From assembly GCA_030680855.1 (NCBI GenBank), contig JAUXUN010000004.1, positions 1 to 43,011 on the forward strand: a DNA stretch of 43,011 bases, in the 5' to 3' direction. The notes under the pieces are model-generated. The model worked only from the letters and a program-made list of their open reading frames with translations, was not told where the DNA came from and did no database searches. A program made the translations under genes and the position numbers. Shown here in pieces: positions 7,924 to 34,883 of this stretch. Position 1 is the first letter of the stretch. Each line of letters starts with the position of its first letter. The stretch is from Aestuariivirga sp. GTDB taxonomy: Bacteria > Pseudomonadota > Alphaproteobacteria > Rhizobiales > Aestuariivirgaceae.

Positions 7924-9123
<1,200 letters not shown>

Positions 9124-9750
9124 TTAACGTGGCCGCAGTTTTGCGATGGGCGCGAAGCTTCTGCGGTGGTGAATGCAGGGGCCAAGCTCAAGCAGGGCCG
9201 CGTGATGGAACGCCGTGCCATAGCCCTTATGGCGGGCAAAACCGTAACCCGGAAATTCCTCATGGAGCGCCACCATGATCCGGTCGCGTGTGACCTTTGC
9301 AATGATCGACGCTGCGGCGATGGAAAGAGAGCGCGCATCGCCGGAGACAATGGTTTGCACCGGGCATGAAAGCTTGGGTGCGCGGTTTCCGTCCACCAAC
9401 GCGTAGTGTGGCGCGGCGCTGAGATCGTGAACCGCTTCCGCCATGGCCCATAAGGTGGCGGCGAGAATATTGTCACTATCGATACGCGCCTCGTTAGCAA
9501 TGCCGACACCAACCTTCGAAGACGCCATGATCTCCGCGAAAAGTTCTTCGCGCTGGGCCTCCTTGAGTTTTTTTGAATCATCGAGTCCCAAAGGAGTATT
9601 TCCGGGATCAAGAACAACGGCGGCGGCAACAACCGGCCCCGCCCACGGTCCCCGTCCGGCCTCGTCAATGCCGCAAATGAAGGAATGCCCCTGCTTTTGC
9701 GCCGCAAGCTCATAACTGAAATCAGGTGCGCTGGAATCGCTCCGTGCCAT
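9124..9750 (-). CDS. rnhB: Ribonuclease HII
   Basis: A 208-aa RNase HII that cuts RNA in RNA-DNA hybrids and removes misincorporated ribonucleotides. The active site is visible: [14 protein letters not shown] with Asp29/Glu30, then LDDSKKL, and the aspartate in ALVDGN. The conserved blocks [14 protein letters not shown] and ARHKGYGT follow. The ATG at 9750 ([10 protein letters not shown]) is chosen; a much longer in-frame upstream extension overlaps the radical SAM gene and is low-complexity antisense sequence. Located 93 bp upstream of ccrM and 20 bp downstream of the radical SAM gene, all on the minus strand. Confidence 0.95.
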
Positions 9751-9770
9751 GGCCCCTATGGGCCATAACC

Positions 9771-10907
9771 CTAAATCAGCGTCAACTGTTCTCCGGCCTG
9801 CGGCGGCTTCCTGAACAAGTCGGTGGCAAGCGTCGTCCGTTTTGCGTTGATCCCGAGGCGTTCGGCCGCCAGTTGAAAGCGCCTCCCGATGGTCCAGGCA
9901 TAGGGCCCGTTGCCGCTCATGCGCCTGCCGAACGTCGCGTCGTTTTCCTTGCCGCCCCGCGTGGATTTTACCAGCGTCATGACCTTGGAGGCCCGGTCCG
10001 GCATTTCCGTCATCAGCCATTCCTTGAAAATGTCTTTCACTTCGAGCGGCAGCCGCAGCATCGTGTAGCCCGCCTCTTTCACGCCCGCCACCGCGGCGGA
10101 CTTCAGGATGGCCTCGATCTCCATGTCGTTCACCGCCGGAATCACCGGCCCGATCATCGCCACGGTTGGAATGCCCGCCGCCGAAAGCACACGAAGAGTC
10201 TCGAGCCGTTTGGCAGGGGTCGAGGCCCGAGGCTCCATCGCGCGCGCCAACTTTCCGTCAAGCGTCGTTACTGAAATCGCCACCTTCACCAGCCCGCGCT
10301 TAGCCATGGACGTCAAGATATCCAGGTCGCGCAACACCAGCGCTGACTTGGTGACAATGCCCACCGGATGATTGAACTCCGACAGCACCTCAAGGATCTG
10401 CCGCGTAATCCGGTAGGTGCGTTCGATTGGTTGGTAGGGATCAGTGTTGGAGCCCAGCGCCATGGTGCGCGGGGCGTAATTGGGCGCGGTTAATTCCTCC
10501 CGGAGAAGCGCCGCCGCGTTCGGCTTTATGAAAAGCTTGCTCTCGAAATCCAGCCCCGGCGAAAGCCCCATATAGGCGTGGCTGGGCCGCGCATAACAAT
10601 AAACGCAGCCATGCTCGCAGCCCCGGTAAGGATTGATCGAACGGTCAAAGGAAATGTCCGGCGACTGGTTGCGCGCAATGATGGTTTTGGGCTGCTCTTC
10701 AAAGATCGTGGTTTTGAGCGGCGGCAAATCAGCCAGCGTCTCCCAGCCGTCATCAAAAAACGAAATCCCGTTTTTCTCGTAGCGCCCCTTCTCATTGTTG
10801 CGCGCCCCACGCCCCCGCATCTGCTGCGGCAAGGCCGTGAGCCGCCCGGCACCCGTAACGGCGGGATCGAAGGAAATGGAGGGTCGGTTATCAAGTAAAG
10901 TGGGCAT
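9771..10907 (-). CDS. PA0069-family radical SAM protein
   Basis: A 378-aa radical SAM enzyme. The cluster-binding motif is C-x3-C-x2-C at Cys97, Cys101 and Cys104 ([14 protein letters not shown]). The following barrel contains [12 protein letters not shown] and the SAM-domain strands GIVTKSAL and VAISVTTLD. The family resembles spore photoproduct lyase-like proteins and is often called 'PA0069 family'; its reaction is not established, and DNA repair is a guess from its fold and from rnhB next to it. The ATG at 10907 is chosen ([10 protein letters not shown]); upstream extension to 11090 would overlap the divergent exporter gene. Divergent from the EamA gene. Confidence 0.88.
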
Positions 10908-26365: not shown

Positions 26366-27271
26366 ATGCCGCTGAATCCGACCAAATCATTCCAGGACCT
26401 GATTCTCACCCTGCACCAGTATTGGGCAGCCAAGGGCTGCGTGATTTTGCAGCCCTATGACATGGAAGTGGGAGCAGGCACTTTTCATCCCGCAACCACA
26501 CTGCGCTCCGTCGGGCCCAAGCCCTGGGCCGCCGCTTACGTGCAGCCCTCGCGCCGCCCGAAAGACGGCCGCTATGGCGAAAACCCAAACCGCCTGCAGC
26601 ACTATTACCAGTACCAGGTCATCATCAAGCCATCGCCTCCGGACTTGCAGGAGCAATATCTTGGCTCGCTTGCGGCCATCGGCATCGATCCCAAACTGCA
26701 TGACATCCGTTTTGTCGAGGATGATTGGGAGAGCCCCACGCTCGGCGCCTGGGGCCTCGGCTGGGAAGTCTGGTGCGACGGCATGGAAGTCTCGCAGTTC
26801 ACTTATTTCCAGCAGGTGGGCGGCCTCGATTGCTTTCCCGTCTCCGGCGAATTGACCTACGGCCTCGAACGCCTCGCCATGTATGTCCAGGGCGTCGACA
26901 ATGTCTATGATCTGAATTTCAACGGCCTCGAAGGCCCAAAGAAAATTTCTTATGGCGATGTCTTCCTCCAGGCCGAACAGGAATACTCGCGCTACAATTT
27001 CGAACACGCCGACACCGCCATCCTGCAGAAACATTTCGAGGATGCCGAGAAGGAGTGCAATGCGCTCCTTGATGTGGGCCTGAAGGACGAGACGCACGAA
27101 CTGGCGCTTCCGGCTTACGACCAGTGCATCAAGGCCTCGCACATGTTCAACCTGCTCGATGCCCGCGGTGTGATTTCCGTCACCGAACGCCAGGCGTATA
27201 TTTTGCGCGTCCGCGACCTCGCCAAGGGCTGCTGCGAAGCCTGGAGCAAAACGGCAGGAGGAAGGATATGA
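26366..27271 (+). CDS. glyQ: Glycyl-tRNA synthetase alpha subunit
   Basis: A 301-aa catalytic alpha subunit of the bacterial alpha2beta2 glycyl-tRNA synthetase. It is highly conserved: [20 protein letters not shown] at the start, then [15 protein letters not shown], the active-site block [20 protein letters not shown], and [19 protein letters not shown] at 26366 chosen because it gives the standard N-terminus. Its stop overlaps the ATG of a DUF559 gene (ATGA, 27268-27271), which separates it from glyS. In most bacteria glyQ and glyS adjoin directly. Confidence 0.97.
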
Positions 27272-27726
27272 CGGGTTCTTCGCTTACTTCGCCCCTCCCC
27301 TTGAGGGGGAGGGGAGGGGGTGGGGTGACCTCTCGGCAACTCCGCAAAAGCCAAACCGACGCGGAACGAAAAATGTGGTTCATCCTGCGCGATCTCGACT
27401 GGCCTAAGGCGCATTTCCGCAGGCAAGTGAAAATTGGTCAATATTTCGCTGACTTTTTGAGTCATCATTTCAAACTGGTTATTGAAGTCGACGGTTCACA
27501 GCATTTCGAACAGGATGGCCTCGCGCGTGACGAGGTGAGAACAGCATTCCTTGGTGCGGAAGGGTTCAACGTAATTCGTTTTGGCAATAATGATGTATTG
27601 GGCAATCCGGCTGGCGTTGCAGACAAAATTATAGATGTCCTGTCCAGCCTGACCCCCACCCCTACCCCTCCCCACAAGGGGGAGGGGCAAGAGGAAACGC
27701 GCCAAGCCAAGATCGGGAAGACGTAG
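27268..27726 (+). CDS. DUF559 (Vsr-like fold) putative endonuclease inserted between glyQ and glyS
   Basis: A 152-aa protein with a DUF559 domain (about 22-127), a family related to very-short-patch repair and other PD-(D/E)XK nucleases. Probable catalytic residues are Asp62 (YFADF), Glu73 and Asp75 ([10 protein letters not shown]). The end [20 protein letters not shown] is typical. Its first and last 20-odd residues ([23 protein letters not shown]) are encoded by about 40-bp inverted repeats. The ATG overlaps the glyQ stop and its stop directly abuts the glyS ATG, so it is translated within the operon. The target is unknown. It looks like a repeat-bordered cassette that entered in register. 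Confidence 0.85.
27291..27330. repeat. Left inverted repeat of the DUF559 cassette
   Basis: Forty bases that themselves contain a palindrome (gcccctcccc with ggggaggggagg) and then g/t-rich sequence. They match the reverse complement of 27649-27688 with one single-base indel and few substitutions. The repeat lies inside the DUF559 reading frame near its 5' end. Confidence 0.75.
27649..27688. repeat. Right inverted repeat of the DUF559 cassette
   Basis: Reverse-complement partner of 27291-27330. Its own palindrome is cccctcccc with ggggaggggc around an acaa/caag centre. It codes for the Pro-rich C-terminal end of the DUF559 protein. No clear target-site duplication flanks the pair. Confidence 0.75.
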
Positions 27727-29916
27727 ATGCCTGAACTCCTGATCGAACTCTTCTCCGAGGAAATTCCCGCCCGCATGCAGGCGAAGGCGGCGGAAGATTT
27801 GCGCAGCCTCATCACCAATGGCCTCGTGGACGCGGGCCTCACCTATGAAGGTGCCCAGGCCCACGCCACGCCGCGCCGCCTCGTGCTGTCCGTCGAAGGC
27901 CTGAACGCCAAAGCCGCCGACATGCGCGAGGAGCGCAAAGGCCCCCGCACCGATGCGCCAAAGCCCGCCATTGATGGCTTCCTGAAATCCACCGGTTTGA
28001 AGCTCGATCAGCTCACGGTTCAGGACGACAGGAAGGGCAAGTTCTATATCGCCACGATCAAAAAGCCGGGGCGCGCCGCAACCGATGTGGTGGCCGAGCT
28101 CTTGCCCGATGTCATCCGGAAATTCCCCTGGCCAAAATCCATGCGCTGGGGCGCAGGCACCTTGCGCTGGGTGCGCCAGCTTCTCTCCATCGTCTGCACC
28201 TTCGATGGCGAAATCGTGCCGTTTGAAATCGAAGGCATCCCCTCGGGCAACACCACGCTGGGCCACCGCTTTCTCAGCGCGAAGAAAATCGAAGTCCGCC
28301 GCTTCGAGGACTATGCCCAGAAGCTCCACAAGGCCTACGTCATCGTCGATGCGAATGTGCGCGCGGAAACCATCCGCGCCGAAGCAAAAAATCTCGCCTT
28401 CGCCCAAGGCCTCGAAATGATCGAGGATGAAGGCCTGCTGAAGGAAGTGGCGGGCCTCGTCGAATGGCCCGTGGTGCTGATGGGCGAGTTCGACAGGAAT
28501 TTCCTGAGCGTGCCCCCTGAAGTCATCGTCACCACCATCAAGAACAACCAGAAATGCTTCGCGCTTCGCGACAAAACCGGCAAGCTCGCCAACCGCTATC
28601 TGCTGGTTTCGAACATGGTGGCCACCGACGGCGGGAAAATGATCGTCGCCGGCAACAACAAGGTCATCGCCGCAAGATTGTCCGACGCAAAATTCTTCTG
28701 GGATCAGGACCGCAAGACCAGGCTCGAAGACTTGCTGCCGAAACTGGACAGCATCACCTTCCACGCCAAACTCGGCAGCCAGGGCGAACGCGTCAAACGC
28801 ATCGAAGTGCTGGCCGGAGAAATCGCCAAAACCATCGGCGCCGATGTCGAGAAATCAAGACTCGCGGCACGCCTCGCCAAGGCTGACCTCGTCACCGGCA
28901 TGGTCGGCGAATTCCCCGAACTGCAAGGAATCATGGGCTATTACTACGCATTAGAGCAGGGTGTTGATAAGGATGTGGCTGAAGCCATCCGCGATCACTA
29001 CAAACCGCAAGGGCCGAATGACACGATTCCAGCTTCAAAGATTGGCCAAGCTGTCGCGCAGGCAGATAAGCGCGACACACTCGTAAGTTTTTGGTTGATA
29101 GATGAAAGACCAACGGGTTCAAAAGATCCATACGCTCTTAGGCGGGCAGCTCTCGGAAATGTTCGTATTAACATTGAAGGCAGCAATAAAGTTGCTAATA
29201 CACCAGTAATTATTGCGCAATCAATGAGAGTAGAAGGCGATGCAATTGCGACAGTAAAAGAGGGTCAACTCGTTTTATATACAGGTCCACGAAAAGAAAT
29301 TCCGAAGGAACTCCTTCAACGCTATAATAATCCTAAGAGCGGTTCTCCCAACGTGAGTATGGAGCTATTCAATGCTGATACAACTAAGAACGCTGATCTC
29401 CTTTCTTTCGATGCTGATCGACTCAAAGTCTATCTTAAAGATCAAGGTGCACGATTTGATTTGATTGATGCGGTATTCTCGCTCGGAGGGCAGGATGATT
29501 TTTTGATGATCGTGCGCCGCGTCGAGGCCCTTTCCAAATTCCTTGAAAGCGACGACGGGAAGAATCTTCTCGCCGGCGTCAAGCGCGCCTCCAACATTCT
29601 CAAGATCGAAGAGAAGAAAGACAATCGCTCCTTTGATGGCCTGCCCAATGCCCAGCTTCTCATTCAAGGCGAGGAGCGCGACCTGCACCGCGCCGTCTCC
29701 GCCGCCGAAGCCAACGCCCGCAAGGCCCTGGATGCGGAGGATTTCGGCGCCGCCATGACGGCCATCGCAAAACTTCGCGGCCCCGTCGATGCCTTCTTCG
29801 ACAAGGTGACGGTGAACGCCGACGACCCCTCCTTCCGCGAAAACCGCCTGAAACTTTTAAACCGCATCCGCGCGGCAACACTGGCAGTGGCGGATTTTTC
29901 GAAGATTGAAGGGTAG
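27727..29916 (+). CDS. glyS: Glycyl-tRNA synthetase beta subunit (mosaic)
   Basis: A 729-aa beta subunit of glycyl-tRNA synthetase, involved in tRNA binding. It starts with [20 protein letters not shown] and holds the conserved [28 protein letters not shown] and [20 protein letters not shown]. The segment coded by about 28945-29497 (residues about 406-590) has many AT-rich codons; a 300-base sample (29161-29460) has 40% GC against about 60-70% in samples on either side. Residues 478-557 also look longer than the matching region of other alphaproteobacterial GlyS proteins, consistent with the length being above the usual 690-700. The reading frame is intact across both edges. ATG at 27727 abuts the DUF559 stop. 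Confidence 0.94.
28945..29497 (+). other. Low-GC tract inside glyS (probable recombinant segment)
   Basis: Codon choice shifts from GC-ending to AT-rich codons (TTA, ATA, AGA, GTA, AAT) and back, over about 550 bp. It contains the family blocks [12 protein letters not shown] and [20 protein letters not shown], so it is real GlyS sequence rather than an unrelated insertion. Between them are about 80 residues where I would expect roughly 40. Edges are approximate. Confidence 0.75.
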
Positions 29917-30159: not shown

Positions 30160-31377
30160 ATGTCAGCCGCTTCCACCCTTCAAGACAGCCCCTATTCCTG
30201 GTTCCGCCTTGCCGTGTCCCTGGCGCTCGCCACCATCGGCGGAATCGGCATCTGGTCCGGCATCGTCGTCCTGCCCTTCATCGAAGTTGAATTCGGCGTT
30301 GACCGGTCCGGCGCGTCATTCCCTTATACCATGAGCATGATCGGCTTTGCTGTCGGCGGCCTGCTCATGGGCAGGCTGGCCGACCGCTTCGGCATCATGG
30401 TGCCCATGTTCCTGGGCTCCATCATGCTGGGGCTGGGTTTTGTCGCCTCGGCCCTTGCCCCTAATTATTGGACCTATGTTGCCTGCCAGGCAGTGCTCAT
30501 CGGCTTGGGCTGCGCCACGATATTCGGCCCCCTTGTTGCCGATGTTTCGCTGTGGTTTCAAAAGCGCCGGGGCATCGCCGTTGCCGTGGCGGCTTCCGGA
30601 AACTACATCGCCGGCACCGTCTGGCCGCCCATCCTCACCTGGGGCATTCAAACCTATGGCTGGCGCTATGCCTATATTGCCCTTGGCATACTCACCGTGT
30701 CGCTCATGCTGCCCCTGTCGCTATTCCTGCGCCGCCGCGCCTCGCTGGATGAACGGCCCAGCCCCTCCGTCACTGCGCGCAGCGGTGGCAAAACCCTTGA
30801 CGGAACCCCGGTGCTCCAAGGCCTGCTTGTTCTCGCCGGGCTTGCCTGCTGCGTGGCCATGTCCATGCCCCAGGTCCATATCATCGCCTATTGCGGCGAT
30901 CTCGGTTACGGCCCGGCCCGCGGCGCTGAAATGCTCTCCATCATGCTGGGCTTCGGCGTGGTGAGCCGCCTTTCCTTTGGTTTCATCGCCGACCGTATCG
31001 GCGGCGTGAAAACCCTCATCATCGGCTCCTTCCTGCAATGCCTGGCGCTGCTGTTTTACATTCCCTTCGATGGCCTGGCCTCGCTCTACGTCGTCTCCGC
31101 CTTCTTTGGCCTGGCCCAGGGCGGCATTGTGCCGAGCTATGCGCTGATTGTGCGCGATTATTTCCTGGCCCGCGAGGCGGGCTTCCGCATCAGCCTCGTG
31201 CTGACCGCAACCGTTCTGGGAATGGCACTGGGCGGCTGGCTCTCCGGCGAAATCTTTGACCGTACCGGCTCCTACCAGGCCGCCTTCCTCCACGGCATAG
31301 GCTGGAACATGCTTAACATGGCCATAGCTTTCTGGCTGCTTATGGGACGGAAAACGGCAAAACTCCGCCCTGCCTAA
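30160..31377 (+). CDS. MFS transporter
   Basis: A 405-aa inner-membrane protein with about twelve transmembrane helices and a central charged loop (RRRASLDERPSPS). The MFS loop motif GRLADRFG between helices 2 and 3 is clear, and a related GFIADRIGG occurs in the second half. It resembles the monocarboxylate/oxalate-formate branch, but the substrate cannot be read from the sequence. ATG at 30160 follows a weak ggtgagataagg site. It stands between glyS and the PPDK-like gene, which are neighbours in many relatives, so it is probably a lineage-specific insertion. Confidence 0.88.
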   Translation: MSAASTLQDSPYSWFRLAVSLALATIGGIGIWSGIVVLPFIEVEFGVDRSGASFPYTMSMIGFAVGGLLMGRLADRFGIMVPMFLGSIMLGLGFVASALAPNYWTYVACQAVLIGLGCATIFGPLVADVSLWFQKRRGIAVAVAASGNYIAGTVWPPILTWGIQTYGWRYAYIALGILTVSLMLPLSLFLRRRASLDERPSPSVTARSGGKTLDGTPVLQGLLVLAGLACCVAMSMPQVHIIAYCGDLGYGPARGAEMLSIMLGFGVVSRLSFGFIADRIGGVKTLIIGSFLQCLALLFYIPFDGLASLYVVSAFFGLAQGGIVPSYALIVRDYFLAREAGFRISLVLTATVLGMALGGWLSGEIFDRTGSYQAAFLHGIGWNMLNMAIAFWLLMGRKTAKLRPA

Positions 31378-31427
31378 AATCTGCCCACTTGACCTCCCGC
31401 CATGCAGCGTGTTTGCTGCACTGCAAT

Positions 31428-33806
31428 ATGCCGGTGAAAACCATAGTCGCGTTGGGAAAAACCCCGCCATCGCTGGGCGCGAAGGCGGCTGGCCTCGGCG
31501 ACATGCTGGCCCTTGGCCTCGCCGTGCCATCAGGCTTCGTCATCACAGACCCTTCGGGCCTGACCGCCGCAAGCCTTGCCGCCGCGGTAAAGAAACTTGG
31601 CGTTAAGGACAAGCCGCTGCTTCTCGCCGTGCGCCCCAGCGTGTTTGGCCCTGTCAGCGGTTATATGGAAGCCGTCTTGAATGTCGGCCTGAATGATGAA
31701 ACGGTTGAAGCCTTGGCCGCGCGGTTGAACGACCGCCCCCTGGCCTATGACCTTTACCGCCAATTCATCCAGAACTATGCGGTGAATGTTCTCTCCCTGC
31801 GCCACGCCGATTTTGAAGATATCTTTTCCGCCCACAAAGGTTCTGACCTGATCGCGTATTACAAGTCATTCATCGAGAAGCAGACCGGCGCCGTCTTCCC
31901 GCAAGCTTTGCTCGAGCAATTGCAGGGCGTGGTGAAAGCCGCCAGCCGCCGCAGGAAATCCGCCGCCCTCATCGTCCAGGCCATGGTCCAAGGTGGAAGC
32001 ATTCTTGGCGTCGCCACCTCGCGCAATTTTTCAACTGGCGCCCGGGAGCCAAGCATCGCCCCGGCTTTCGTGGAAAAATTTCCAAAGCAGGCGGCCCAGC
32101 TCAAATCCGCGCTGAACAAGATTGAGCGCCGCTGCAAATCCATTCAGGAAGTAATCTTCACCGTCGAGAAGGACAAGCTCTGGCTGCTGCAAACCAAGCC
32201 CGCCAAGGTCAGCGCCCGTGTTGAACTCAAAACCCTGGTGGACATGGTGGGCGAGGGCCTGCTCACCAGGAAGGAAGCAATCCTCCGCGTCGATCCGCTG
32301 ATGCTCGACCAGTTTCTCCATCCAACCCTTGATCCAACCGAAACCCACGAAATATTTGTGTCCGGTCTTGCCGCCTCGCCCGGTGCCGTGTCGGGGCAGG
32401 TGGTGTTTGATGCAGCCGAAGCCCAGCAGCTTAAATTGCGCAACCGGCCCTGCATCCTCGTGCGCAGTGAAACCAGCCCAGAGGATATTCAGGGCATGCA
32501 CGCCGCCGAAGGCGTGCTCACGGCGCGCGGCGGCCTTCTCTCGCACGCGGCGGTCATCGCCCGCGGCATGGGCAAAACCTGCGTGGTGGGGGCCAGCGGC
32601 CTGCGCATTGACTATGAAGCCGGAACCATGACGGCGCTCGGCGTTGTCGTGAAGAAAGGCGAGACGATCACCGTCGATGGCTCAACCGGCCGCGTCTTCC
32701 GTGGCCGCATCGCCACCCAGAAGCCCGTGCTCTCCGGCGACTTTGCCACCATTCTCGAATGGGCCGATGCCTCGCGCCGCATGAAAGTGCGCGCCAATGC
32801 CGAAACGCCCAACGAAGCCCGCTCCGCCCGTTATTTCGGCGCCGAAGGCATCGGCCTCTGCCGCACCGAACACATGTTCTTCAGTGCCGAACGCATTGGC
32901 CCCATGCGCAAGATGATTCTCGCCGAAACCGTGGAAGCCCGCAGAGAAGCGCTGGATGAAATTCTCCCCATGCAGCGCCAGGACTTCATCGAGCTCTTTG
33001 AAATCATGGCGGGACTGCCGGTCACCATCCGCCTGCTCGATCCGCCGCTCCATGAATTCCTGCCGAAGTCCGAGCATGAAATTCTCGAACTCGCCAGCGA
33101 ACTTTCCATTGCCCCGGAATATCTCCGCACCCGTGTCGGCGAGTTGCAGGAATTCAACCCCATGCTTGGCCACCGCGGCGTGCGCCTTGCCGTGTCCTAT
33201 CCGGAAATCGCCGAAATGCAGGCCCGCGCCATATTCGAGGCCACCGCCGATGTCGCCCAGAAATATGGCAAGGCGCCTATTCCCGAAATCATGATTCCCC
33301 TTGTCGTCGGCAAGCTGGAATTTGATTATGTCCGCGCCCGGGTTGTTGCGGTAGCCGATGCCGTGCAGCAGGAATGCGGTCTTGAACTGCCCTATCTCGT
33401 GGGCACCATGATTGAACTGCCCCGCGCCACCCTGCGCGCCGGCGAGATTGCCGAATCAGCGGAGTTCTTTTCCTTCGGCACCAATGACCTCACGCAAACA
33501 ACTCTCGGCATCAGCCGTGATGACAGCGCCAGCTTCATTGGCGAATATACCGCCAAGGGCCTTTTGAAAGCTGATCCTTTCATCTCCATTGATATTGAGG
33601 GTGTGGGCGAACTCCTGCGAATCGCCACGACGCGCGGAAGGAAGGCCAGGCCCGACCTCAAGCTCGGAATTTGCGGCGAACATGCGGGCGATCCGGCCTC
33701 GATAAGTTTCTGCGAGGAAATCAAGCTCGATTATGTGTCCTGTTCACCCTTCCGCATCGCCATTGCGAGGCTTGCCGCAGCCCAGGCAAGTATCAGAAAT
33801 AACTAA
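31428..33806 (+). CDS. PPDK-like protein with an eroded ATP-grasp domain
   Basis: A 792-aa homologue of pyruvate phosphate dikinase (usually about 870-890 aa). The phospho-His domain is intact (GGLLSHAAVIARGMG, His373). So is the C-terminal PEP/pyruvate barrel: MKVRANAETP, VTIRLLDPPLHEF, TMIELPRATL, FFSFGTNDLTQTT and Cys749 in LGICGEHAGDP. The N-terminal ATP domain is reduced: Lys19 and Arg69 remain, but the loop SGARASMPG of true PPDK reads PSVFGPVSG, and the segment with the Glu and Gln that bind Mg-ATP (GEYLINAQGED in PPDK) is absent after SRNFSTG. The place after glyS and before sleB is that of ppdK in relatives. It may have lost ATP-dependent activity or use another phosphate donor. ATG at 31428; no strong ribosome-binding site. 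Confidence 0.85.
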   Translation: MPVKTIVALGKTPPSLGAKAAGLGDMLALGLAVPSGFVITDPSGLTAASLAAAVKKLGVKDKPLLLAVRPSVFGPVSGYMEAVLNVGLNDETVEALAARLNDRPLAYDLYRQFIQNYAVNVLSLRHADFEDIFSAHKGSDLIAYYKSFIEKQTGAVFPQALLEQLQGVVKAASRRRKSAALIVQAMVQGGSILGVATSRNFSTGAREPSIAPAFVEKFPKQAAQLKSALNKIERRCKSIQEVIFTVEKDKLWLLQTKPAKVSARVELKTLVDMVGEGLLTRKEAILRVDPLMLDQFLHPTLDPTETHEIFVSGLAASPGAVSGQVVFDAAEAQQLKLRNRPCILVRSETSPEDIQGMHAAEGVLTARGGLLSHAAVIARGMGKTCVVGASGLRIDYEAGTMTALGVVVKKGETITVDGSTGRVFRGRIATQKPVLSGDFATILEWADASRRMKVRANAETPNEARSARYFGAEGIGLCRTEHMFFSAERIGPMRKMILAETVEARREALDEILPMQRQDFIELFEIMAGLPVTIRLLDPPLHEFLPKSEHEILELASELSIAPEYLRTRVGELQEFNPMLGHRGVRLAVSYPEIAEMQARAIFEATADVAQKYGKAPIPEIMIPLVVGKLEFDYVRARVVAVADAVQQECGLELPYLVGTMIELPRATLRAGEIAESAEFFSFGTNDLTQTTLGISRDDSASFIGEYTAKGLLKADPFISIDIEGVGELLRIATTRGRKARPDLKLGICGEHAGDPASISFCEEIKLDYVSCSPFRIAIARLAAAQASIRNN

Positions 33807-33844
33807 ACTATTTCTTGCTGCCTGGCGCGGTTAACCCTCATCGG

Positions 33845-33882
33845 AATTGCCCGATAAAAAATCAGGAAATCGGGCAATTTTG
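33845..33882 (+). terminator. Intrinsic terminator after the PPDK-like gene
   Basis: Perfect 11-bp stem, aattgcccgat (33845-33855) with atcgggcaatt (33869-33879), 13-base loop, followed by tttggttt. It lies 38 bases past the stop codon. Confidence 0.75.
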
Positions 33883-33892
33883 GTTTGCTGGC

Positions 33893-33911
33893 ATGGTTAA
33901 CCTATGCTAAA
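33893..33911. promoter_or_regulatory. CtrA-box-like sequence upstream of sleB
   Basis: TTAA-cctatgc-TAAA (33897-33911) departs by one base from the alphaproteobacterial CtrA consensus TTAA-N7-TTAA. On the opposite strand TTAACCAT (33900-33893) is also a CtrA-like half site. Another GGTTAACC is at 33829-33836. It lies just before the proposed sleB start at 33924, or about 100 bases before the alternative at 34011. Short degenerate motifs occur by chance, so this is tentative. Confidence 0.3.
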
Positions 33912-33923
33912 CGCGAAGGGTAT

Positions 33924-34883
33924 ATGTTTCCGTCAGTGAAACAATATTGCGGGACTAAGCCTTTATTAGGACTAGGGGATTTGCAGGAAAAACGCCCAAC
34001 TCATAGGCCTATGGCCGACTTCCCCGTTTATCCTGAAGTGGATGAGGGCGGTGGAATTGTTCAGGAATATGCGCCGTTTGTTTTTGGTGGCGTAATGCTG
34101 ATTGCGGCCTTCGCTTTTGCCGGCAACTACATGGGCCAGAATGCCAATGCCCACAATGCGCCGCCTGACGAACTGGAATTGAACCTTGTTTCGCCGGTCA
34201 CCAACATCATCGCCAAGGGTTCGCTTCTGCCTGATGGCGAAAATTTCGATATCGTGAATCTCAATGTGCTGCGCAAGCAAACCGTGGTGAGCCTTGGCAA
34301 GGGCGATTTCGTCAACGCCAGCGGCCAGGTGTTCATTTCGCCGGCCTCCATTGATCTTTCCGGCAAGGCCGATGTTTCGGTTCCCGCGGTCAAGCGCCTG
34401 GCGCTGGCCCCGTCGCCCTCCAAAATTGAAAAATCATTCAAGCTGAAGCGCACTGAGAAGCAGGCCGTCGTGGCCCAGCGCCGCGCCCGCTTGGCCGAAG
34501 AAAACTGCATGGCCCGCGCCATTTATTTCGAGGCCCGGTCCGAATCGGAACTTGGCCAGCTTGCCGTCGCCCGCGTGATTTTGAACCGCGTCAAGGATCC
34601 GGCCTATCCAAATTCGATCTGCGGCGTGGTCTATCAGGGTTCCAACCGGCGCAATTCCTGCCAGTTCTCCTTTGCCTGTGACGGCCTTCCCGATGACGTG
34701 AAGCAGCCGGCCGCCTGGGCCAATTCCAAGCAGCTTGCGCAAAAGGCCATGAGCGACAGCAAGGGCACCAAGATCATGAGCACCGCCACCAATTACCATG
34801 CGGACTATGTGCGTCCGAAATGGGCGGGCAGCATGAAGCGCATCGTGAAGATCGGCCGTCATATCTTCTATTCGGATTCGTGA
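33924..34883 (+). CDS. SleB-type cell wall hydrolase
   Basis: A 319-aa membrane-anchored protein. One transmembrane helix (FVFGGVMLIAAFAFAGNYMG) lies near the N-terminus, followed by an Asn/Pro linker and a basic region. The C-terminal SleB/hydrolase_2 domain has the catalytic Glu in ARAIYFEARSESELGQ, then VARVILNRVKDPAYP and RNSCQFSFACDG. It probably cleaves peptidoglycan glycan strands in the periplasm. Start: ATG at 33924 (gaaggg before it); ATG 34011 (MADFPVYPEV) would also keep the helix. Gene order ppdK-sleB is common in Hyphomicrobiales. A terminator precedes and another follows it, so it is transcribed alone. Confidence 0.88.
   Translation: MFPSVKQYCGTKPLLGLGDLQEKRPTHRPMADFPVYPEVDEGGGIVQEYAPFVFGGVMLIAAFAFAGNYMGQNANAHNAPPDELELNLVSPVTNIIAKGSLLPDGENFDIVNLNVLRKQTVVSLGKGDFVNASGQVFISPASIDLSGKADVSVPAVKRLALAPSPSKIEKSFKLKRTEKQAVVAQRRARLAEENCMARAIYFEARSESELGQLAVARVILNRVKDPAYPNSICGVVYQGSNRRNSCQFSFACDGLPDDVKQPAAWANSKQLAQKAMSDSKGTKIMSTATNYHADYVRPKWAGSMKRIVKIGRHIFYSDS

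Follow-up and report, generated by a model that had tools for sequence, protein, structure and literature searches.

A Pyruvate Phosphate Dikinase Orthologue with a Damaged ATP Side and an Intact Histidine/PEP Side in Aestuariivirga: A Possible PEP-Dependent Phosphocarrier

Introduction

Pyruvate phosphate dikinase (PPDK; EC 2.7.9.1; TIGR01828; PDB 1DIK, 1KBL, 1VBG) is a three-domain enzyme with an ATP-binding side, a catalytic His on a central, swivelling domain, and a PEP-binding side. In Flaveria PPDK, ATP is contacted by Glu324 (E323 in the numbering of C. symbiosum PPDK, which is used throughout) and Arg95 (PMC5507339), and the central domain of the C. symbiosum R219E/E271R/S262D triple mutant (2R82) lies alongside the PEP domain (PMC5371819). 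VadK (Rv1127c) of M. tuberculosis is a histidine kinase derived from PPDK, in which the ATP side has been retained (PMC13400623). No paper describing PPDKs that keep only the PEP side was found among the matches listed by searches of an open-access library; a match concerning Rickettsia felis was set aside, as PPDK had been used there only for a phylogeny.

In this study, we focus on a ppdK-like gene in a stretch of 43,011 nucleotides from Aestuariivirga sp. (contig JAUXUN010000004.1), hereafter the window. An earlier note, made from the sequence alone, had proposed that the gene encodes a PPDK homologue of 792 aa with an eroded ATP-binding domain and intact phospho-His and PEP domains. The family assignment, the altered and conserved residues, the relatives among 37 genomes of the genus (G000 being the window's own) and a survey of 219 genomes of the order Hyphomicrobiales (Rhizobiales) are presented here, together with the explanations that they allow.

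The Gene, Its Family and Its Locus

The open reading frame was confirmed as a PPDK orthologue of 792 aa (P0001), and its parts and neighbours are collected in Table 1. PPDK is the best named family in the NCBIfam search, the protein scoring 886.8 bits under TIGR01828 (cut-off 843.45), with its best stretch at residues 200–789; under the PEP synthase model TIGR01418 it reaches 150.8 bits, far below the cut-off of 739.75, and under the Enzyme I model TIGR01417 it reaches 112.5 bits, with the best stretch at residues 574–783. Pfam finds PPDK_N, PEP-utilizers and PEP-utilizers_C and no other domains; PPDK_N (PF01326) scores just 59.3 bits, in two pieces, compared with 248 bits for the PEP domain (PF02896). 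The curated model, the phospho-accepting His with the PEP/Mg site residues, and the genomic position (gene order as in canonical G031 of the same genus) all place the protein among the PPDKs, and the ATP-site residues (D321, E323, Q335, R337 and the Gly loop) do not.

Table 1. Features of the ppdK locus, in positions of the window.
Feature	Position	Strand	Evidence
glyS	27727..29916	+	tblastn, 32 loci
MFS transporter	30160..31377	+	tblastn, 32 loci
ppdK orthologue of 792 aa, its nucleotide-binding domain eroded	31428..33806	+	same length in two sister species
N-terminal (ATP-grasp-derived) domain, residues 1–262, reduced, ATP site altered	31428..32213	+	PF01326 score, gaps, omega
Junction after residue 177; 17 residues with the R219 equivalent missing	31958..31959	+	alignment
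Junction after residue 206; 32 residues with GEFLVNAQGED (E271 equivalent, by counting) missing	32045..32046	+	alignment
Former ATP-site motif EVIFTVEKDKLWLLQTK, residues 241–257; D321E, E323I, R337K	32148..32198	+	alignment
Phospho-histidine (central, swivelling) domain, residues 305–425	32340..32702	+	PF00391 80.3 bits, omega
L-S-H, residues 371–373; catalytic His373 retained, Leu in place of the regulatory Thr	32538..32546	+	alignment
PEP/pyruvate-binding domain, residues 430–790	32715..33797	+	PF02896 248 bits; seven of seven checked active-site residues kept
16-bp hairpin just past the stop codon; may be a terminator	33840..33884	+	folding
CwlJ/SleB-like cell-wall hydrolase	33885..34883	+	tblastn, 32 loci

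The window neighbours, whose names (glyS, MFS transporter, CwlJ/SleB-like hydrolase) were given by eye and are taken as such, were searched together with the C-terminal part of PPDK by tblastn on 32 loci. At 31 of the 32 loci (the exception is G196), the CwlJ gene is found no more than about 6 kb from PPDK and in the same orientation, and glyS or glyQ was found on 16/32 stretches, several of which are too short to reach glyS. Degenerate is used here for PPDKs with two or more departures in the quartet D321/E323/Q335/R337. The glyS/glyQ genes stand near degenerate PPDKs in families f6 (4/5), f43 (2/2) and f51 (2/2), and also near canonical PPDKs in G031, G040 and G049; in G084, glyS is on the opposite strand. 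The locus glyS-(MFS)-ppdK-CwlJ is therefore conserved in degenerate and canonical lineages alike, so that ppdK changed in place, and the gene of the window is a PPDK orthologue at its ancestral position.

The 'clear terminator' that had been described after the gene comes down to a 16-bp hairpin on the plus strand (z -2.27; 6/200 shuffles fold as well); a consensus terminator scan gave no plus-strand match, and its three minus-strand sites are no more than shuffled sequences give. Upstream of the ATG, at 31389–31427, the codons are open and alike in the sister species (LTSRHAACLLHCN), so that translation may start from a TTG at 31389, or a promoter element may be conserved here. Between glyQ and glyS lies a further open reading frame (27124–27726), DUF559-type endonuclease-like by eye, which is flanked by short stretches of the SPLPLRGRG / PTPPHKGEG type.

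The ATP Side Is Altered and Shortened

Residues were mapped onto C. symbiosum PPDK via a phmmer alignment to 1DIK. In the mapped parts, identity to the C. symbiosum enzyme is 59/166 before position 340 and 263/488 from position 384 on. The ATP-site quartet D321/E323/Q335/R337 reads E/I/Q/K in the 792-aa protein, position E323 being Ile here and Thr in four sister forms, and the Gly loop RSAARASMPG is replaced by RPSVFGPVSG; K22, R92 and Q335 have kept their equivalents. We take D321, Q335, R337 and the Gly loop to have ATP-site roles. Position T453, presumably the regulatory Thr of PPDK, has become Leu.

Against canonical L009 of the same genus, nine gaps are seen, every one of them before residue 207, which amount to 101 missing residues in the aligned frame, or 99 when counted from the L009 start codon. 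The largest, of 32 residues, surrounds GEFLVNAQGED, the next, of 17, precedes QAMVQGG, and seven are shorter. R219 was located from the row of the mutant 2R82 in the alignment, and E271 by counting, with equal spacing assumed; the equivalents of both, which belong to the trio of residues substituted in 2R82, are lost with the two largest segments. Together with the 2R82 geometry, this loss fits a His domain that would no longer dock on the nucleotide side, and weak nucleotide binding may nevertheless persist through K22, R92 and Q335.

The broken ATP side that had been read from the sequence alone is borne out by the alignments to 1DIK and L009, as are the length of 792 aa, the missing block GEYLINAQGED (present as GEFLVNAQGED in L009), the missing segment before QAMVQGG and the loop PSVFGPVSG. 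One point needs correction: the Mg-ATP ligands had been placed in GEYLINAQGED, whereas the documented ATP-contacting Glu is E323, which belongs to another motif (DMEFT...LQTR) and is lost as well.

The Histidine and PEP Side Is Conserved

On the other side of the protein, as had been suspected, the H455 equivalent (His373) and all seven checked residues, R561, R617, D620, E745, N768, D769 and C831, are kept in the 1DIK mapping; we take these seven to be the PEP-site residues. The same conservation is seen in the degenerate PPDKs of the tree described below, with His present in 40/40 rows and the PEP septet complete in all 38 rows that reach the C end, the two further rows being cut by contig ends. 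By the definition of the class, all 40 of these rows have at least two departures among the four ATP-quartet sites.

Sister Forms, Selection and the Predicted Fold

Among the 37 genus genomes, the eroded form recurs in G023 (92% identical), G026 (87%), G009 (94%, cut by a contig end) and G016 (75%). The genes of G000, G023 and G026 are exactly 792 aa long and begin at the same ATG. Contig C146 of G023, when reverse-complemented, is identical to record CADEEO010000146.1 (5539 bases) of MAG RBC017, which appears in PMC8555084 as GTDB Aestuariivirga sp902826365, in agreement with the genus of the window. A sequencing error is ruled out, because the sister species carry the same length and motifs, and the missing segments are genuine.

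Selection was assessed per domain by omega (Nei–Gojobori), each genome being compared with the window. For the PEP domain, the values are 0.063 (G023), 0.042 (G026), 0.067 (G016) and 0.068 (G009), and for the His domain 0.057, 0.062, 0.137 and 0.095, in the same order. The N domain gives 0.155 (G023), 0.171 (G026) and 0.291 (G016), as well as 0.405 for G009, where just 23 codons overlap. Five canonical pairs have N-domain values of 0.076–0.148 and PEP-domain values of 0.043–0.110, and four pairs among the 13 genomes with a degenerate but less reduced N domain have 0.024–0.231 and 0.030–0.095, respectively. Constraint on the PEP side thus equals that in canonical PPDKs, and it persists in the N domain, which evolves in the closer eroded pairs (0.155–0.171) only modestly faster than the canonical maximum of 0.148. 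The eroded gene is under purifying selection, its frames are open and its exact length is kept in three species, which agrees with the earlier view that it is not a dying pseudogene; its codon use, described there as normal, does resemble that of seven other window genes.

An AlphaFold2 model built from 34 sequences has a mean pLDDT of 87.9 and a pTM of 0.80, with 46/792 residues below 70, and Foldseek matches it to PPDK over the full length (TM 0.91, by query, to maize PPDK 1VBG). From this confidence and full-length match, a folded state is predicted for the reduced N domain as well.

Degenerate ATP Sites and the Regulator across the Order

Within the genus, 18 genomes were typed as degenerate, comprising the five eroded as in the window and 13 whose N domain is altered though close to full length. 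None of the 18, the window's own genome included, has a match to the PPDK regulatory protein (PF03618). Thirteen canonical genomes with full or nearly full PPDK have PF03618, and G005 is without it; G035, represented by an N fragment and assigned from its Gly loop alone, also has it. Left out of this count were G024 (a single departure with changes in other motifs, and lacking the regulator), G022 and G030 (C parts only) and G033 (PPDK not found).

In the survey of the order, PF03618 is lacking in 36/219 genomes, 20 of which were read directly and 16 deduced from the list of positives. Under a rule set post hoc (an N-domain E-value above 1e-90 combined with a C-part E-value below 1e-100), 22 of the 24 weak-N/strong-C genomes lack the regulator, the exceptions being G196, which is real, and G195, a contig fragment; the corresponding figure for the other genomes is 14/195 (Fisher p 1e-18, with kinship ignored). 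These 14 comprise nine that are canonical or near-canonical (G038, G119, G129, G147, G177, G186, G191, G211 and G229), G182 and G208, which are degenerate by the quartet, G118, a degenerate N fragment, and G099 and G138, with neither PF03618 nor PPDK. Beyond the genus, degenerate lineages are f6 (7 genomes), f51 (6), f43 (3), f48 (1) and f9 (1), with parts of f16 (G215) and f44 (G182, G208) and with G196 in f1, which is degenerate yet keeps PF03618. The substitutions at the ATP site vary from family to family. Families f44 (L158–L162) and f16 (L163–L164) hold graded series of ATP-site loss in sister genomes. Since G191, G119 and G229, within f16/f44, lack the regulator and have a canonical or near-canonical ATP site, the regulator may have been lost before the ATP site.

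A quick tree built on the His and PEP regions, with 83 rows and some long branches, was used to view these states against descent. In it, 39/40 degenerate and 3/43 canonical rows lack PF03618; the second figure is flattering, as just three of the nine regulator-less canonical-type survey genomes are in the tree and six are absent. Of the canonical rows, 20 are supplementary ones from strong-N families, typed by E-value rather than by the quartet, and 20/20 have the regulator. Omitted were L052 and L062 (short C part) and L184_G061 and L054_G008 (long branch or cut); the fragments L021, L051, L059, L061, L064 and L065, the f12 row L068 and the duplicates L179 and L182 had been dropped before alignment. 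Four state changes are needed on the tree, and a single origin of all degenerate forms is rejected (p-AU 1.4e-6, on this quick tree with its long branches). The degenerate state is therefore recurrent across the order, with more than one origin. Inside the genus there may have been one origin, as the 18 degenerate rows lie on one side of a branch, whose support is weak (82/54). Once kinship is counted, the association with the regulator is not significant, because just four independent pairs are left; averaged over pairings, the regulator goes with the ATP-site state in 2.3 of them, against it in 0, and does not differ in 1.7.

Mirror forms, which keep the ATP side and lose the PEP side, also occur in the order. 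In family f12 (G047, G095, G131, G162, G189), the N-domain query matches at E of about 1e-98 to 1e-104 and the C part at about 1e-19 to 1e-23, with the PEP-domain match nearly gone, and PF03618 is kept in 5/5 genomes (about 1e-66 to 1e-69). The gene was read in G047 alone of these five; it encodes 568 aa (L206, about 8509–10212, minus strand), stands at the same glyS/CwlJ locus, and ends after the His domain with no PEP domain. In G061 (L184/L201), from a sister genus within the family to which Aestuariivirga belongs, the DEQR quartet and the Gly loop are kept, the PEP septet reads RRDADAC, with E745, N768 and D769 replaced, and the genome has two PF03618 matches. In these cases, the regulator follows the ATP side and not the PEP side, which suggests that the PPDK regulatory protein serves the ATP side of PPDK.

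Metabolic and Phosphotransfer Context

A second complete ppdK, for which the earlier note had recommended a search, was not found in the window's genome; its sole other PPDK_N protein is a complete PEP synthase (G000:C11:13013-15364; L001, L034). Takeover by PEP synthase as a general cause is rejected, because only 4/37 genus genomes have one over the cut-off, three of them with a canonical PPDK, and none was found over the cut-off in the other four eroded sister genomes. PEPCK occurs in 30/37 genus genomes of both classes, the genomes without a match being G011, G012 and G026 (degenerate or eroded), G008, G028 and G031 (canonical) and G033 (untyped); its presence permits the loss of PPDK function without explaining it. 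Pyruvate kinase is found in 35/37 genus genomes, the window's included, and its loss is therefore rejected as a cause. With pyruvate kinase and PEPCK present, the metabolic steps are covered.

As for phosphotransfer proteins, the window's genome has one HPr, as do 15/18 degenerate genus genomes, while 8/13 canonical ones have two; an extra HPr as the partner is rejected, no surplus accompanying the degenerate state. The genome also holds a 770-aa Enzyme I-like frame, which we take to be PtsP and which would presumably be the usual PEP donor.

Discussion

The reading that we favour, with a probability of about 0.45, is that the 792-aa protein is a PEP-dependent phospho-histidine protein, an Enzyme I-like phosphocarrier that evolved from PPDK and stands outside the PPDK reaction. 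Judged from its residues, the ppdK orthologue would no longer catalyse the ATP/Pi = AMP/PPi half-reaction, and with a damaged ATP site and an intact PEP/His side, the likeliest remaining reaction would be PEP + His = phospho-His + pyruvate. PEP would thus reversibly phosphorylate His373 on the swivelling domain, with release of pyruvate, and for want of a working nucleotide site, the phosphate would be passed to a different acceptor. This is most likely a partner protein, which would be the simplest reason for keeping a phosphorylatable His. The shrunken N domain may act as a docking or control module. Against this reading count the single HPr and the Enzyme I-like frame of the window's genome, the kept K22, R92 and Q335, and the only modest acceleration of the N domain in the closer eroded pairs; as to the regulator, the small number of independent pairs, the nine canonical-type survey genomes that lack it and the degenerate G196 that keeps it also weigh against.

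Several other explanations have to be weighed against this one. The protein could be a sensor or scaffold whose PEP/His side binds PEP or pyruvate and reports to a partner without any phosphotransfer; conservation of both the N and PEP domains would agree with this, as would the apparent end of ATP-derived turnover, but His is retained in every degenerate row, and each of the 38 complete rows has the equivalents of E745, D769 and C831, which probably exceeds what binding requires, and we consider such a role unlikely, though not by a wide measure. It is less probable that the protein is still a PPDK, in which substitute residues bind ATP and the normal reaction runs, perhaps slowly. The kept K22, R92 and Q335 equivalents, the N domain that folds in the model and the NCBIfam name, which remains PPDK, speak for that possibility; it is opposed by the change of E323 to Ile or Thr and of D321 to Glu, by the missing Gly loop and R219/E271 segments, by the different substitutions of other families, and by the absence of the regulator.

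A split PPDK, in which a second protein provides the ATP side in trans, might be imagined from the ATP-side-only forms in other genomes (f12, G061); the single other PPDK_N protein of the window's genome, however, is a complete PEP synthase, and the four other eroded genomes have none over the cut-off, so that we give the idea little credence. Equally slender are the chances of a relic, a gene on its way out whose conserved part is under residual or structural constraint: the N domain has indeed lost segments and does evolve faster than the rest, but purifying selection is strong, the frames are open, and three species share exactly 792 aa. Finally, the phospho-His might be hydrolysed or passed to a small molecule, giving an ATP-independent enzyme for PEP -> pyruvate. 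The His domain may be freer without the R219/E271 segments, which would help such a reaction, but there is little need for it in genomes that have pyruvate kinase, and it seems very improbable.

A broader proposal, which extends the phosphocarrier reading to the order, is possible but more doubtful: PPDK would have been repeatedly dismantled in Hyphomicrobiales, into PEP-side protein phosphotransferases without the regulator and ATP-side forms (f12, G061) with it, so that a recurrent new class of phosphocarrier would stand at a central-metabolism locus. In practical terms, since the protein passes the TIGR01828 cut-off, pipelines that use this model would call it PPDK, and metabolic models would then assign it the ATP-driven step from pyruvate to PEP, against which the sequence argues. 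If the kept half is active, the protein would be a natural half-enzyme and a mirror of VadK, and the series of canonical, degenerate and eroded forms within one genus would make the route from enzyme to phosphocarrier testable.

Comparison with Known Systems

The window protein resembles PPDK in locus, three-domain fold, catalytic His and PEP site, and differs from it in the changed E323, D321, R337, Gly loop and regulatory Thr, in the missing R219 and E271 segments, and in the lack of a PF03618 match in the genome. PEP synthase (TIGR01418) has the same domain set, but the protein scores far under its cut-off and the genome holds a separate, full PpsA. With PTS Enzyme I/PtsP (TIGR01417) it shares the PEP-binding domain and, as its residues suggest, the logic of PEP -> His phosphotransfer; its sequence is nevertheless that of PPDK, the N-terminal HPr-binding domain of Enzyme I is absent by Pfam, and a separate Enzyme I-like frame is present. 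VadK is likewise a PPDK outside the PPDK reaction that retains a phosphorylatable His (PMC13400623); its ATP domain is present, and a truncation leaves it with no PEP domain. The window protein, with its PEP domain present and its ATP side damaged, is the reverse, and the 568-aa form of G047 is a VadK-like one in Hyphomicrobiales.
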